37,892 nucleotides of DNA, taken from Paracoccaceae bacterium (lineage in GTDB: Bacteria; Pseudomonadota; Alphaproteobacteria; Rhodobacterales; Rhodobacteraceae). The stretch lies in assembly GCA_020425125.1 (NCBI GenBank), contig JAGQRV010000003.1, positions 67,869 to 105,760 on the forward strand, written 5' to 3'. Shown here piece by piece: positions 7,964 to 13,076 of the stretch. Both the position numbers and the translations under genes were made by a program. The notes beneath the pieces were generated by a model that searched no databases, was not told the DNA's origin, and was given only the letters and a program-made list of their open reading frames with translations. Position 1 is the stretch's first letter. Each line of letters opens with the position of its first letter.

Positions 7964-9181
7964 TCAGTCGCCGGGGCCGGATCGGCGCCCGCGTTTCGCA
8001 CGGCCCGCGATCATCCCGGCCAGCGGCGTCGCGGTGATCCCGTGGGCCAGGACGCTGAGCAGGATGGTGCAGACGATGGTCGCGAGGAGGATGCCCTCGT
8101 GCGGCAGGTCGGCATCGATGATGAGGATGCCGAAGACGATGCTGGCCAGTCCGCGCGGGCCGAACCAGCCGATGAAGAGCCGCCCCGGGGTGCCGACCGG
8201 GGATCCCGCGAGGCTGAGCCAGACCGGCAGCATCCGGATCAGGGTGAGACTGAGGACGGCGTAGAGGAAGGCGGCGGGCGTGATCCGGTCCAGGAAGGTG
8301 TGGACCACGCCGGCGCCGAACACGACCCAGGTCAGCAGCGCCAGCGCGTCGCCGGTCCCCTCGGCCGCGACGAGCAGCCGGTGCCTGCGACCGGCAGGCG
8401 GGCGGAAGGCGAGGCCGCCGGTGAAGCAGGCGACGAAGCCGCTGCCGCCGAGCGCCTGGGCGGCCGCGAAGGCGGTGAGCGCGAGGGCGACGACGGTGAC
8501 GTTGTTCCAGTCCTCGCCGATCCAGCCCGCGGCCTCGGCGCGGCCGAGCAGCCAGCTTGCGGCGAGCGACAGGGCGACGCCGGTCAGCAGACCGATGCCC
8601 AGCCCCTCGGCGACGATGCGGATCACGTAGAGTGCGGGCAGGCCCTCGAACTCGATGCCGATGGCGACGCCGAGCAGAAGCAGTACCACCGGCACGCAGA
8701 TGCCGTCATTCAACCCGCTTTCGATGTTGAGCGCGGCGCGGGTATCCGCGGGAACGGCCGGGTTGCTGACGACCGGCGCGCCGAGCGCGGCATCGGTCGG
8801 CGCGAGCACCGCGGCGAGCAGCGCAAGCTCAACCGGGGCGAGGCCGGGAAAGAGCAGCCAGGCGACCCCGAAGCCGAGCAGGATGGTCAGCGGCAGGCCG
8901 ATCAGCAGCAGCCGTTCGGGCAGGCCGGCGGCGCGGCGGAGCCGTCCGAGATCGGCGTTGGCGGCGTCGGTGAAGAGGACGATGGCCAGCGTCAGTTCGG
9001 CCAGAAGCCGCAGACTTTCGGCATCGATGTCGAGCCGGAGCAGCCCGGCCGCGCCGGGGCCGAGCAGGAAGCCTGCGGTGACGAACAGGATCGGCCCGCT
9101 GAGCCACGAGGTCGCGACCCGGCCCGAGATGAGCGCGTAGAGGAAGCCGAGGGCGGCGAGAAGGGCGAGGCTCTGGTACAT
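7964..9181 (-). CDS. Cation:proton antiporter, CPA1 (NhaP-like) family
   Basis: 405 aa, about 12 membrane helices. The ion-binding core is visible as LAAVLAPTDAALGAPVV and, soon after, ALNIESGLNDGICVP. These correspond to the TD and ND motifs of CPA1 antiporters, the ND pair marking electroneutral exchangers. The end carries IGWFGPRGLASIV, another family signature. It exchanges Na+ or K+ for H+ across the inner membrane. There is no C-terminal TrkA or CNMP regulatory domain. The start MYQSLALLAALG gives a first helix at once. It is divergent from the thioredoxin gene. Confidence 0.88.
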   Translation of the reverse strand: MYQSLALLAALGFLYALISGRVATSWLSGPILFVTAGFLLGPGAAGLLRLDIDAESLRLLAELTLAIVLFTDAANADLGRLRRAAGLPERLLLIGLPLTILLGFGVAWLLFPGLAPVELALLAAVLAPTDAALGAPVVSNPAVPADTRAALNIESGLNDGICVPVVLLLLGVAIGIEFEGLPALYVIRIVAEGLGIGLLTGVALSLAASWLLGRAEAAGWIGEDWNNVTVVALALTAFAAAQALGGSGFVACFTGGLAFRPPAGRRHRLLVAAEGTGDALALLTWVVFGAGVVHTFLDRITPAAFLYAVLSLTLIRMLPVWLSLAGSPVGTPGRLFIGWFGPRGLASIVFGILIIDADLPHEGILLATIVCTILLSVLAHGITATPLAGMIAGRAKRGRRSGPGD

Positions 9182-9337: not shown

Positions 9338-9772
9338 ATGGCCGAGGGACTGAAGCTGACCTGTCTGGAATGCGGGCAGGTGAACCGGGTGCCGGCAGAC
9401 CGGCTGGGATCCGGGCCGATCTGCGGTGTCTGCGGCGCGACGCTGGCGGACGGGCGCGTGCGCGAGGTGGATCTGGCGATGCTGGAAAAGGCGGCGCGCA
9501 CCGATGCGCTGCCGCTGGTGGTCGATTTCTGGGCGCCCTGGTGCGGGCCGTGCCGGATGATGGCGCCGCAATACAGCGAGGCCGCGAAGGCGCTGAAGGG
9601 CGCGGCCCGGCTGGTCAAGCTCAATACCGAGGAGCATCCCGAGGCGGGAAGCCGCTATGGCATCCGCGGCATCCCGATGCTGGCGGCCTATCGCGGCGGC
9701 CGCGAGGCGGCGCGGCAGGCCGGTGCGATGCCGGCGGCGGGCATCGTCGACTGGGTCCGGCGCGCGGTCTGA
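9338..9772 (+). CDS. trxC: Thioredoxin 2
   Basis: 144 aa. An N-terminal zinc ribbon (CLECG at about 9-13, CGVCG at about 29-33) is followed by a thioredoxin fold with the active site FWAPWCGPCRMMAP and the cis-Pro loop RGIPML. The zinc ribbon identifies TrxC (thioredoxin 2) rather than TrxA. It reduces protein disulfides and is usually linked to oxidative stress. The start at 9338 follows GGAGG; the upstream in-frame ATG at 9317 has a poorer site. It converges on the glutathione S-transferase gene, 24 bases away. Confidence 0.94.
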   Translation: MAEGLKLTCLECGQVNRVPADRLGSGPICGVCGATLADGRVREVDLAMLEKAARTDALPLVVDFWAPWCGPCRMMAPQYSEAAKALKGAARLVKLNTEEHPEAGSRYGIRGIPMLAAYRGGREAARQAGAMPAAGIVDWVRRAV

Positions 9773-9796: not shown

Positions 9797-10486
9797 TCAG
9801 GCGGGTTCGATGGTCCGGAAACGGTCGGGCATCCGGTCGTTGAAGGGGAAGTAATCGAACCAGGGCCGCGCCTCGGCGAGGACGCGCCGGAACGACGGGC
9901 GGGCCAGCAGCCGTTCGAAATAGGCGGCGAGATGGGGGTGGTCTTCGGGGAAGGGCACCAGGATCCCGGCGTAGAACAGCGCCGGCGCGGCGGCGCAGTC
10001 GGCCATGCTGAAAGCGGCGCCGACCGCCCAGTCCCCGTGCGCCGTCTGACGCTCGATCATTCCATAGGCGGTCCTCAGGCGCGCTTCCTGCTCGCGCACC
10101 CCTTCCGGGTCGCGCCGCGGCTCGGGACGAAGACGGTCGGCCACGATCCGCTGCATCGGGTCCTGGACATGAAGGTCGAAGAAGCGGTCCCAGAGCCGCA
10201 CATCGAGCCGGGTTTCCGGATCGGCCGGCAGCAGCGGCGCCGCGCCGGGATAATGCCGGTCGAGATATTCGATGATGATCGGGGTTTCCGGCACCACCCG
10301 GTCCCGCGCCGCGTCGCGCAGCACCGGCATCTTGCCCACCGGCCAGAGGTCGAGGAACCGGCCGTGGTCGCCCGGATCGCCCAGATCGACGGTCACCGAC
10401 TCGAACGGGGTGCCGGCTTCGTAGAGCGCGATCAGCACCTTGTGGCAGAACGAGGCCAGTGGGTGGCCGTAAAGGGTGAGGGCCAT
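9797..10486 (-). CDS. Glutathione S-transferase family protein
   Basis: 229 aa. The N-terminal thioredoxin-like domain begins LTLYGHPLASFCHKVLIAL and has VGKMPVLRD (cis-Pro) and ETPIIIEYLD (the E-S/T-like glutathione-binding step, here ETP). An all-helical C-terminal domain follows, with FSMADCAAAPALFYA. The SFCHKV sequence puts a Cys/Ser pair near the usual catalytic position. The substrate cannot be told. The start is supported by GGAG 6-9 bases upstream. It is divergent from the Rieske-fusion operon. Confidence 0.9.
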   Translation of the reverse strand: MALTLYGHPLASFCHKVLIALYEAGTPFESVTVDLGDPGDHGRFLDLWPVGKMPVLRDAARDRVVPETPIIIEYLDRHYPGAAPLLPADPETRLDVRLWDRFFDLHVQDPMQRIVADRLRPEPRRDPEGVREQEARLRTAYGMIERQTAHGDWAVGAAFSMADCAAAPALFYAGILVPFPEDHPHLAAYFERLLARPSFRRVLAEARPWFDYFPFNDRMPDRFRTIEPA

Positions 10487-10721
10487 CGGGATCTCCGCGG
10501 ATCGGGGCACTGGCGCGACGATACGCCCGCGCGCGGCCGGCGTCAGCCCCCGCCGCATCAACTGATCCGGCCCGTCGCAGATCCGTGAGAAGGTTTCGGA
10601 TGACCCGGCGCGCGCCTTTGCGTAGCGTCAGGGCGACGTGATCGGCGCGGAGGCGGGACAGGATGGCGGCGCGGACCTGCGGTGCGGACGGCGGATGGCA
10701 GTGCGCCGTGGGGGCACGGCG

Positions 10722-11081
10722 ATGACCGCGGCGCTGATCCTTGCAGGCCAGGTCTATCTCTGGGCAGGTGCGGCGGTGGCGGCCCTGTTCCTGACCTGGG
10801 GCATCGGGCGGGTGGAGCCCCATGCGCGGGGCAGCTACCTGTTCCGTCCGCTCTTGGTGCCGGGATGCGTGCTGATCTGGCCGCTGGTGCTGTGGCGCTG
10901 GCGGGCGCTGGAGCAGGGGCGCGACGCGGGCTGCGCGCGCCACCGTCCGCCGCGGGTGGCGCAGGTCCGGATCGGCGTGGCGCTGGCGGTGCTGGTGCCG
11001 CTGATCCTCGGCCTCGGGCTGGTCATCCGGCAGGATGGCCCCAGGGAGCGGCCCCCGGCGCTTCTGGAGGCGGCGCAATGA
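10722..11081 (+). CDS. Small three-helix membrane protein (first gene of the Rieske-fusion operon)
   Basis: 119 aa, unrecognised. There are hydrophobic segments at about 5-28, 40-58 and 81-101, with a basic stretch (WRWRALEQGRDAGCARHRPPR) between the last two. No cofactor motif is evident. The stop overlaps the start of the ferric-reductase/Rieske gene by 4 bases (ATGA), so the two are translationally coupled. It is probably a subunit or assembly partner of the same membrane complex. The start at 10722 is preferred over 10638 because it begins directly with the first helix. Confidence 0.75.
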   Translation: MTAALILAGQVYLWAGAAVAALFLTWGIGRVEPHARGSYLFRPLLVPGCVLIWPLVLWRWRALEQGRDAGCARHRPPRVAQVRIGVALAVLVPLILGLGLVIRQDGPRERPPALLEAAQ

Positions 11082-12118
11082 GCGTGCGCTATGTGCCGGT
11101 GCAGTGGAACCGCATCAAATGGGTCTATGACGGGCTGCTGGTCGCGGGCGTGCTGGCCTATCTGGTGGCCTTCCTGCAGATCGGCGCCGGGATGGCCGAT
11201 GCGACGCGGCCCGTGGACGGGGCGATCCTGCGGATGCGCGCCTTCGGTTCCTGCGCCTTCTTCCTGCTGACGGTGATCCTCTGCATCGGCCCGCTGGCGC
11301 GGCTCGACCGGCGCTTCCTGCCGCTGCTCTACAACCGCCGCCATTTCGGCGTGGTCACGTTCGCGGTGGCGCTGACCCATGCGGCCTATGTGCTGGGCTG
11401 GTATTTCGCCTATGCGCCGACGCCGCCGGTGGCGGCGCTGCTGTCCTCCAACACGAGCTATGGCACGGCGCTGGGCTTTCCCTTCGAGGCGCTGGGCGCC
11501 TTCGCGCTGGTGGTGCTGGCGCTGCTGGCGGCGACCAGCCACGATTTCTGGCTCAGCTTCCTGACCGCGCCGGTCTGGAAGGCGCTGCACCTGATGATCT
11601 ACCCCGCCTATGCGGCGCTCGTGGCCCATGTGGCGCTGGGCTATCTGCAGGACGTCGACAACCCGGCCTTCGCGATCCTGTTCGGCGGCGGCGCGCTTGC
11701 AGTGGCGGGTCTGCATGCCGCCGCGGCGCTGGAGGGGCGGCGGGAGGCGCGAAGCGCCGGAACGTGGGTGGCGGTCTGCGCGCCGGGCGAGATCGCGGAC
11801 AAGCGGGCGCGGATCGTGCGTCTGCCCGATGGCGACCGCGCGGCAGTCTTCCGCAACGGCGCCCGGGTCTCGGCGATCTCGAATGCCTGTGCGCATCAGA
11901 ACGGCCCTCTGGGCGAGGGGCGGATCGTCTTTGGCTGCGTCACCTGTCCTTGGCACGGCTACCAGTACCGGATGGAGGACGGCTGTTCGCCGCCGCCCTT
12001 CACCGAGAAGGTGCCGACCTACAACCTGCGCCTCAGGGACGGGGTGATCGAGATCGACGCGCGGGCCAACGCGCCGGGCACGCCGGTGCCGCCGCTCGAC
12101 GTCGCGGGGATGATTTGA
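11078..12118 (+). CDS. Ferric-reductase-like membrane domain fused to a Rieske [2Fe-2S] domain
   Basis: 346 aa. Residues 15-220 hold about six helices of a ferric-reductase/FRD-type heme-b domain, with membrane histidines H101, H171 and H184 as likely heme ligands. Residues 228-330 are a Rieske-type domain: C271-A-H273 and C290-P-W-H293 are the cluster ligands, within CAHQNGPL and CVTCPWHGYQY. The C-x-H...C-x2-H layout and WHGYQY resemble soluble, low-potential Rieske ferredoxins rather than cytochrome bc1. The fusion suggests electron transfer between membrane heme and a partner. The third protein in the operon carries a Cys/His motif. It has overlaps of 4 and 1 bases with its neighbours. 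The physiological substrate is unknown. Confidence 0.85.
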   Translation: MSVRYVPVQWNRIKWVYDGLLVAGVLAYLVAFLQIGAGMADATRPVDGAILRMRAFGSCAFFLLTVILCIGPLARLDRRFLPLLYNRRHFGVVTFAVALTHAAYVLGWYFAYAPTPPVAALLSSNTSYGTALGFPFEALGAFALVVLALLAATSHDFWLSFLTAPVWKALHLMIYPAYAALVAHVALGYLQDVDNPAFAILFGGGALAVAGLHAAAALEGRREARSAGTWVAVCAPGEIADKRARIVRLPDGDRAAVFRNGARVSAISNACAHQNGPLGEGRIVFGCVTCPWHGYQYRMEDGCSPPPFTEKVPTYNLRLRDGVIEIDARANAPGTPVPPLDVAGMI

Positions 12119-12867
12119 TGGCCGCGAAGGAGCCGCCCTTCTTCATCGGCTGGGGCAAGATGCCCGCCGCCTTGCGGGATTTCACCATCGGCATCGGGCT
12201 CGGCCTCGTCGTGCTGCTGGCGCTGGCGGGGTTCATGGTGGCCGCGACCCAGAACGACCCGGGCGACGGCGCCGTCCTGGGCGGGGCGGCGGCGGTCGGG
12301 GTGCTGGAGGCCGCGCCCTATCCGGTGCTCCACGTCACCGACAGCGAGAGCTTCGCCGCCGGCACGGCGCTGCTGCTGTCGGGCGTCGGCAAGCGCGGGG
12401 TCGAAGACCGCGCCGGGTCGCTCGACGGGAAGCTGGTGGCGGTGAAGGGCGTGCGGCTGGCGCGCGGCGAGATCGAAGGGGTGCAGGTGTCGCCCGGCGC
12501 CGACGGAATGGTCGAAGCCGATGGCGCCGCGGCGAGGCCGGTGGCCGCGGATCTGGGGCGCTGGCGGATCACCGGCGAGATCTGCGACGGGAAATGCCTG
12601 AACGGCGCGATGCGGCCCGGCACCGGGCTCGCGCACAAGGCCTGTGCCAATCTCTGCCTGATCGGTGGCGCGCCGCCGGTCTTCGTTGCGACAGGCCGGG
12701 TGGACGGGGCGGAGTTCTTCCTGCTCGGCAATGCCGATGGCGGGCCGGTGACGCAGGAGGTGCTGGACCATACCGCAGTGCTGGTCGAGGCCGAGGGCCG
12801 GGTGGAGCGGCGCGGCGGCATCCACGTCTTCCTGATCGACCCTGCGAGCGTGAGGCTGGCGCGATGA
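12118..12867 (+). CDS. Membrane-anchored protein with a conserved Cys/His motif (Rieske-fusion operon)
   Basis: 249 aa. One helix (about 22-44) anchors a soluble, probably periplasmic, domain. The key region is GEICDGKCLNGAMRPG (C156, C160) followed by H173, C176 and C180 in LAHKACANLCLIGG. The pattern C-x3-C...H-x2-C-x3-C looks like a metal or Fe-S/heme-related site. I know similar GEI.D.KC...M.PG.G..H..CA..C sequences only as parts of uncharacterised proteins. It starts on the last base of the preceding stop codon (TGATG) and overlaps the next gene by 4 bases, so it is coupled to both. Confidence 0.75.
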   Translation: MAAKEPPFFIGWGKMPAALRDFTIGIGLGLVVLLALAGFMVAATQNDPGDGAVLGGAAAVGVLEAAPYPVLHVTDSESFAAGTALLLSGVGKRGVEDRAGSLDGKLVAVKGVRLARGEIEGVQVSPGADGMVEADGAAARPVAADLGRWRITGEICDGKCLNGAMRPGTGLAHKACANLCLIGGAPPVFVATGRVDGAEFFLLGNADGGPVTQEVLDHTAVLVEAEGRVERRGGIHVFLIDPASVRLAR

Positions 12868-13076
12868 TCCTGCGGCTGACCGCTGCGGTGCTGGCCCTGG
12901 CCGGGGCGGGGGCGATCCTCTGGGTCTGGACCGGCGGGATCGGCGTCCTCGGCGGGACGGCGCTCTGGGACTACCGCTATCTGGTGCTGGTGGTCGGCAC
13001 GCTGCTCGGGCTCAGTCTGCTCGACAGCCTGATGGAGCGGATCGGGACCTGGCTGAAGGGACCGAAGGCGGACTGA
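12864..13076 (+). CDS. Small two-helix membrane protein (last gene of the Rieske-fusion operon)
   Basis: 70 aa. Two hydrophobic segments (about 3-25 and 34-52) are followed by a charged tail, LMERIGTWLKGPKAD. It overlaps the preceding stop by 4 bases (ATGA), the same arrangement as earlier in this operon, which is the main reason to call it. No family is recognised. The stop is only 6 bases from the stop of the convergent aldolase gene. Confidence 0.7.
   Translation: MILRLTAAVLALAGAGAILWVWTGGIGVLGGTALWDYRYLVLVVGTLLGLSLLDSLMERIGTWLKGPKAD

Follow-up and report, generated by a model that had tools for sequence, protein, structure and literature searches.

What four overlapping genes of an alphaproteobacterium do together, and in which direction electrons would pass through them, is the question raised by positions 10,722–13,076 of a 37,892-nucleotide stretch of Paracoccaceae bacterium DNA (assembly GCA_020425125.1, contig JAGQRV010000003.1, positions 67,869–105,760; hereafter the window). 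A preliminary description, made from the letters of the window, had taken the genes (here A, B, C, and D) for a membrane-bound, self-contained, undescribed electron-transfer system around a ferric reductase–Rieske fusion. As judged from the sequences, A–B–C–D is probably a conserved inner-membrane electron-transfer complex of Alphaproteobacteria, and the reading preferred here is a conduit in which electrons would flow outward from the cytosol to the periplasm with C as acceptor, to which a probability of about 0.5 is given. The genes and their parts are as follows.

10722..11081, plus strand: gene A, 119 amino acids, three predicted membrane helices, consensus stretch FRPLLIPGVxLIWPLVLWRW, no Pfam or NCBIfam match.
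11078..12118, plus strand: gene B, 346 amino acids, MsrQ/STEAP-type haem membrane domain and C-terminal Rieske ferredoxin domain.
11246..11620, plus strand: Ferric_reduct domain of B (Pfam), residues 57–181.
11762..12022, plus strand: Rieske domain of B, residues 229–315, with ligands C271, H273, C290, and H293.
12118..12867, plus strand: gene C, 249 amino acids, one N-terminal membrane helix followed by two beta barrels like the oligonucleotide/oligosaccharide-binding (OB) fold.
12583..12657, plus strand: Cys/His site of C, residues 156–180, C-x3-C-x12-H-x2-C-x3-C.
12864..13076, plus strand: gene D, 70 amino acids, two helices, fast-diverging in sequence and constant in position.

All four open reading frames (ORFs) are open at these coordinates, each with an ATG start, and A/B, B/C, and C/D overlap by 4, 1, and 4 bases, in line with the overlaps of 1–4 bases first reported. 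Membrane helices, counted by a simple hydropathy scan, number three in A, four in B, one near the N-terminus of C, and two in D, which bears out the earlier picture of a three-helix A, an anchored C, and a two-helix D. A protein family search (Pfam and NCBIfam, matches listed to E ≤ 1) matched no model to A, C, or D, and the claim that none of them is a catalytic subunit of a known enzyme is supported at that threshold.

Relatives of B were sought in one genome per species, and at least 573 stretches were confirmed at E ≤ 1e-3. The locus counts rest on the best 80 of these 573, which are near relatives, so that the neighborhoods lean to close kin; as far as the record titles tell, they are Alphaproteobacteria throughout. 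Co-occurrence of the genes in other genomes had been named beforehand as a point on which the preliminary description could fall, and the block is kept: C lies downstream of B in 80/80 loci (in L050 as a 42-residue piece only, E 0.026, at the contig end), and A lies upstream in 79/80, the exception (L048) having just 192 bases before B. Because C follows B and A precedes it with this regularity, the co-occurrence is far beyond chance, and the unit is real. C could be extended to a frame in 78 of the 80 loci, and its overlap with B is exactly 4 bases in 59 of these 78; the odd B–C spacing in L043, L052, and L078 probably reflects a wrong start or frame assigned by the extension script. A overlaps B in 60 of 79 loci. 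In 18 further loci (e.g., L020, L036, L038) the match to A stops 140–220 bases early, and in 17 of them the gap is filled by a second small ORF of 48–60 residues ending at the start of B; A thus seems to be split in some relatives into two short genes, before the last helix. D is detected by tblastn in only a minority of the 80 loci. In all 78 testable loci, however, the end of C is the start of a small ORF for which one membrane helix or more is predicted (two helices in 72); other plus-strand genes, put to the same test as a control, gave 61/595.

Three genome samples (240 evenly drawn genomes of the class, 149 of the order, and 329 of the phylum) extend this picture. In the class sample B occurs in 13 genomes and full-length C in 12, C adjoining B in 12/12; in the phylum sample B was found at E ≤ 1e-30 in seven genomes, every one of the window's own class. 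Residue conservation was read from alignments thinned of near-duplicates, which comprise the window plus 49 of 78 loci for C (A1), 35 of 80 for B (A2), and 22 of 79 for gene A (A3); absent from them are L043 and L065 (A1, A2) and L028 (A3), for which the extracted coordinates produced an internal stop (for L043 and L065 in one alignment each), and also L032 (A3) and Rhizobium L088 and L089.

B is the part of the unit whose domains can be named. Residues 57–181 match PF01794 (Ferric_reduct) with 43.5 bits, above the curated cut-off, and residues 229–315 match Rieske PF00355 with 48 bits against a cut-off of 20.3. The Rieske ligands C271/H273 (C-x-H) and C290/H293 (C-x2-H) agree with the preliminary description and are kept in 36/36 aligned rows, and R87, H89, H101, H155, and H171, together with H184 and H213 just past the domain, are invariant in the same 36 rows. 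A predicted model of B has about six membrane-length helices, more than the hydropathy scan gave, and a C-terminal beta domain, and with this six-helix haem fold and a score over the cut-off B falls within the PF01794 superfamily. The MsrQ/STEAP subgroup has as its signature an Arg replacing the first canonical haem His of the third transmembrane helix (TM3), with the other His residues kept (PMC3591440), and B, aligned with four MsrQ-type proteins, shows R87, H101, H171, and H184 in 36/36 rows. The label ferric reductase therefore survives as the Pfam name of the domain, and the residue pattern is that of MsrQ/STEAP. The closest solved fold listed for B is STEAP2, a likeness of fold only.

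Three other identities for B or the block were ruled out: an MsrQ ortholog by score (29.1 bits against the cut-off of 130, NCBIfam NF003831), a NOX enzyme by R87 at the first haem His position and by Pfam, which shows no FAD or NAD domain, and a cytochrome bc1/b6f-like complex by the lack of any cytochrome b Pfam match in A–D. The Rieske domain of B resembles dioxygenase ferredoxins. Ferredoxin-type Rieske centers are generally of low potential, and for this reason outward flow is favored.

The genes around B bear on what might feed it. They were called by a simple script, so absence of a neighbor is weak evidence. Two kinds of soluble Rieske-bearing enzyme recur: a glutamate-synthase-type flavin mononucleotide (FMN) enzyme that joins a Rieske domain to a Glu_synthase domain (the latter 301 bits in Pfam; hereafter Rieske-glutamate-synthase), near B in 38/80 loci (39 counting one partial match), and a Rieske-bearing thiamine diphosphate (ThDP) enzyme, near B in 43 when counted strictly with plain ThDP enzymes excluded, whose best scores, below the cut-offs, are with pyruvate oxidase and pyruvate dehydrogenase models. 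One or both are found in 48 of the 80 loci and, where the flanks reach at least 8 kb on both sides, within about 9 kb of B in 38/54, which makes the word self-contained doubtful; the membrane electron-transfer character claimed for the whole set agrees with its domains and helices. A cation/proton exchanger gene stands near B in 21/80 loci, and of these associates only the exchanger is present in the window itself, with up to 44% identity to its counterparts at the 21 loci:

7964..9181, minus strand: cation/proton exchanger (PF00999), a possible associate, its membership weak.

The stretch between the exchanger gene and A contains a glutathione S-transferase gene (9797–10561, minus strand) and, inside an ORF ending at 9772, a gene that by eye is thioredoxin-like and begins with what resembles a zinc finger. 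In L007, L008, L028, L040, L082 (part), and two plasmids of Rhizobium, B is accompanied by varying combinations of a TPR-type protein, an OpgC-type protein, and a ThDP enzyme of the plain kind. Haloarchaeal plasmids, and one plasmid from a mycobacterium, also encode ThDP enzymes with a Rieske-like match, whose only annotation is thiamine pyrophosphate-binding protein.

The same association appears genome by genome. In the class sample full-length Rieske-glutamate-synthase is present in seven genomes, six of which have B (Fisher 4.7e-8), and Rieske-ThDP in 11, five with B (Fisher 7.9e-5). In the order sample B and Rieske-glutamate-synthase are each present in 18 genomes and both in 14 (Fisher 5e-13); by genus, 5/5 genera with the enzyme have B, which is found in 9 of 73 genera (8e-6). 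The two genes are side by side in 12 of the 14 genomes and far apart in two, including the window's genome, where the enzyme is encoded on another contig (C92, L122:4456–9794) directly before nifA and nifB. Both nif genes score above their NCBIfam cut-offs; the host, to judge by these matches, carries nitrogen-fixation genes, and Rieske-glutamate-synthase may be tied to them in this host. A second glutamate-synthase-type gene of the same genome (contig C59, L123:5873–7555 onward), with membrane helices at its start (by eye), stands just before a ThDP enzyme match and resembles the Rieske pair without the Rieske domains.

A related form of the enzyme bears on the link. Ten genomes of the order sample encode a glutamate-synthase homologue that is 67–70% identical and matches only past residue 125, and in 10/10 the N-terminus has CDGSH-type motifs and no Rieske motif (Pfam confirms two). 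B is present in none of these ten genomes, nor in one with an eleventh, truncated copy (G370), nor in the three genomes of the class sample with the CDGSH form (one of them shared with the order sample); among order genomes without B, the CDGSH form occurs in 10 and the Rieske form in four. Closely related glutamate-synthase-type enzymes carry either a Rieske or a CDGSH N-terminus (L130–L133 and L142–L149 versus L135–L139). The difference amounts to an exchange between two His-ligated [2Fe-2S] modules; CDGSH-Glu_synthase proteins as such are already in print (PMC5859297). The association of B with the Rieske form of the enzyme suggests electron exchange between the two Rieske domains, either directly or via a shared reductase. 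Where the enzyme occurs without B, the surroundings vary: G268 keeps the exchanger, Rieske-glutamate-synthase, and Rieske-ThDP together, and in G269, G348, and G373, of one genus, MsrP and MsrQ lie 0.8–2.5 kb from Rieske-glutamate-synthase. In G339, of that same genus, the enzyme is of the CDGSH form, and an MsrQ-like gene (76 bits, cut-off 130) lies about 2.3 kb off.

The link to Rieske enzymes could also be read in the opposite direction: quinol or a donor in the periplasm would reduce C, and B would pass the electrons through its Rieske domain to Rieske enzymes of the cytosol, which might, for instance, make glutamate reductively with no need of NADPH or ferredoxin. Glutamate synthesis requires reductant, and the retained Glu_synthase domain, the presence of B with the Rieske but not the CDGSH form, and the position of the enzyme beside nifA and nifB in the window's genome fit such inward flow. 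However, periplasmic donors are usually too oxidizing to reduce a low-potential Rieske center of the ferredoxin type, which that of B resembles, and 4 of the 18 order genomes with B lack Rieske-glutamate-synthase; this direction is judged distinctly improbable.

At the other end of the preferred outward conduit would stand C. Its motif C156–C160...H173–C176–C180 is present in 50/50 aligned rows, exactly as first noted. A predicted model gives an N-terminal membrane helix and two OB-like beta barrels, and the listed fold matches are OB-like; this comparison covers chiefly residues 50–138, domain 2 being weakly covered. Comparison of C alone with PDB sequences gave no match at E ≤ 5, its profile against PDB gave 5wq0 as the best match (E 0.0036, taken as chance), and the best Foldseek match of the model has an E of 0.16. 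The first domain resembles, among many other OB folds, the copper and silver proteins CusF/SilF. Short relatives of the second domain occur in five genomes (E 7e-8 to 5e-6), keep C160, H173, C176, and C180 in 5/5 (by eye), and in 3/5 (L101, L102, L104) are encoded in a row of three genes that includes one for SCO1/SenC, a family of copper chaperones. These rows (L101:4819–6398, L102:6052–7694, L104:4991–6526) consist of the C-domain-2 relative, a second Cys-containing protein, and SCO1/SenC; all three proteins have signal-peptide-like starts, and the first two fall under Pfam cut-offs where scanned.

Such metal-related company, with the STEAP2-like fold of B and a CopD gene after D in Rhizobium binae, is what a periplasmic metal reductase like STEAP would lead one to expect, in which Cu(II) or Fe(III) is reduced and C is a metal-binding or docking subunit; this alternative is considered unlikely. 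A thiol-disulfide or repair system like DsbD/ScsB or MsrPQ, in which the four Cys residues of C cycle as disulfides and reduce periplasmic proteins, would be in keeping with their invariance in C, with the MsrP and MsrQ genes near Rieske-glutamate-synthase in one genus, and with DsbD, thioredoxin-fold, and DsbA genes 8–10 kb from B in Rhizobium binae. The thioredoxin motif is C-x2-C, unlike the C-x3-C of C, the listed fold matches are OB-like, and the motif includes one invariant His; a thiol system is considered quite improbable.

In the outward conduit preferred here, the ferredoxin-type Rieske [2Fe-2S] domain of B would receive electrons from the cytosol, haem b in the MsrQ/STEAP-type helices of B would carry them across, with H101 and H184 as the outer pair, and the periplasmic Cys4His center of C would take them up as the final acceptor or its feeder. 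H171, together with H89, H155, and H213, which are particular to B, could hold a second, inner haem. A and D would be small helical subunits, and the topology, with the Rieske domain in the cytosol and C in the periplasm, follows from a positive-inside assignment made by eye. Cytosolic donors or partners in many species would be enzymes with a Rieske domain of their own, chiefly Rieske-glutamate-synthase. A tentative and rather doubtful extension, a "Rieske bus", would make the glutamate-synthase-type FMN enzyme and the pyruvate-oxidase-like ThDP enzyme dedicated partners that share the conduit B via their Rieske domains; the Rieske domain of B would be the socket, and the end point would be C, a periplasmic tandem-OB protein of a new class with a redox or metal role.

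Several observations weigh against the outward conduit or parts of it. Electron flow could run in reverse, and B may contain a single haem, since TM3 has Arg in the place of the canonical inner haem ligand. No Rieske reductase gene was noticed in the block, and the donor is for that reason unproven. The motif loop of C at residues 161–166 has a predicted local distance difference test score (pLDDT) under 50 in the model, and the cysteines could be structural or disulfide-bonded. G216 of the class sample has B and no match to C. Neither Rieske enzyme is near B in 16 of the 54 long-flank loci, 6 of the 11 class genomes with Rieske-ThDP are without B, and in the order sample 4 of 18 carriers of Rieske-glutamate-synthase lack B, as many as the B genomes without the enzyme; the Fisher tests, moreover, ignore shared ancestry.

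In the sources cited (PMC3591440, PMC5676040, PMC8238504), haem reductases of this superfamily draw their electrons from quinol, a flavin reductase, or NAD(P)H-flavin modules. In A–B–C–D the entry module would be a Rieske ferredoxin, the likely periplasmic partner matches no Pfam or NCBIfam model, and the cytosolic neighbors often carry a matching Rieske domain. If this is true, carbon and nitrogen enzymes of Alphaproteobacteria would be linked to periplasmic redox chemistry by a route not found described in the literature searched, for which the four genes are a clean set for testing.

The haem–Rieske architecture and MsrQ-like multi-gene systems are already known. Rieske is among the domains fused to ferric-reductase domains in a figure legend of Zhang et al. 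(2013; PMC3591440), and those fusions have the same domain pair as B, with no operon, partner, or function given in that part of the source. The open-access literature searched yielded no description of A, C, or D, or of the four genes as a set, so that the label of an undescribed system fails for the fusion and stands, within that literature, for the set. The Rieske ferredoxins of dioxygenases, and NirD, are soluble and stand as proteins or subunits of their own, whereas in B a Rieske domain is joined to a membrane domain of the haem type; the A–D block has no oxygenase gene. STEAP differs from B in having no Rieske domain at the C-terminus and no counterparts of A, C, and D, and STEAP2–4 bear an N-terminal NADPH domain (PMC3591440). 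Multi-gene clusters for transmembrane electron transfer that are linked to ApbE flavinylation also include an MsrQ-like subunit (PMC8238504), but A, C, and D have no FMN-binding domain (Pfam, E ≤ 1). The nearest parallel is with MsrPQ (YedYZ), in which a haem subunit is paired with a periplasmic partner (PMC5676040): shared are the six-helix PF01794 haem subunit, the signature of Arg for the first His, the equivalents of H101 and H184, and a periplasmic partner. The far sub-threshold MsrQ score of B, its added Rieske domain, the two extra small subunits A and D, and the absence of a molybdopterin partner (PF00174), A, C, and D being without a Pfam match, set the two apart. We infer an MsrPQ-like layout in which C takes the place of the molybdenum subunit MsrP and electrons enter through a Rieske module.
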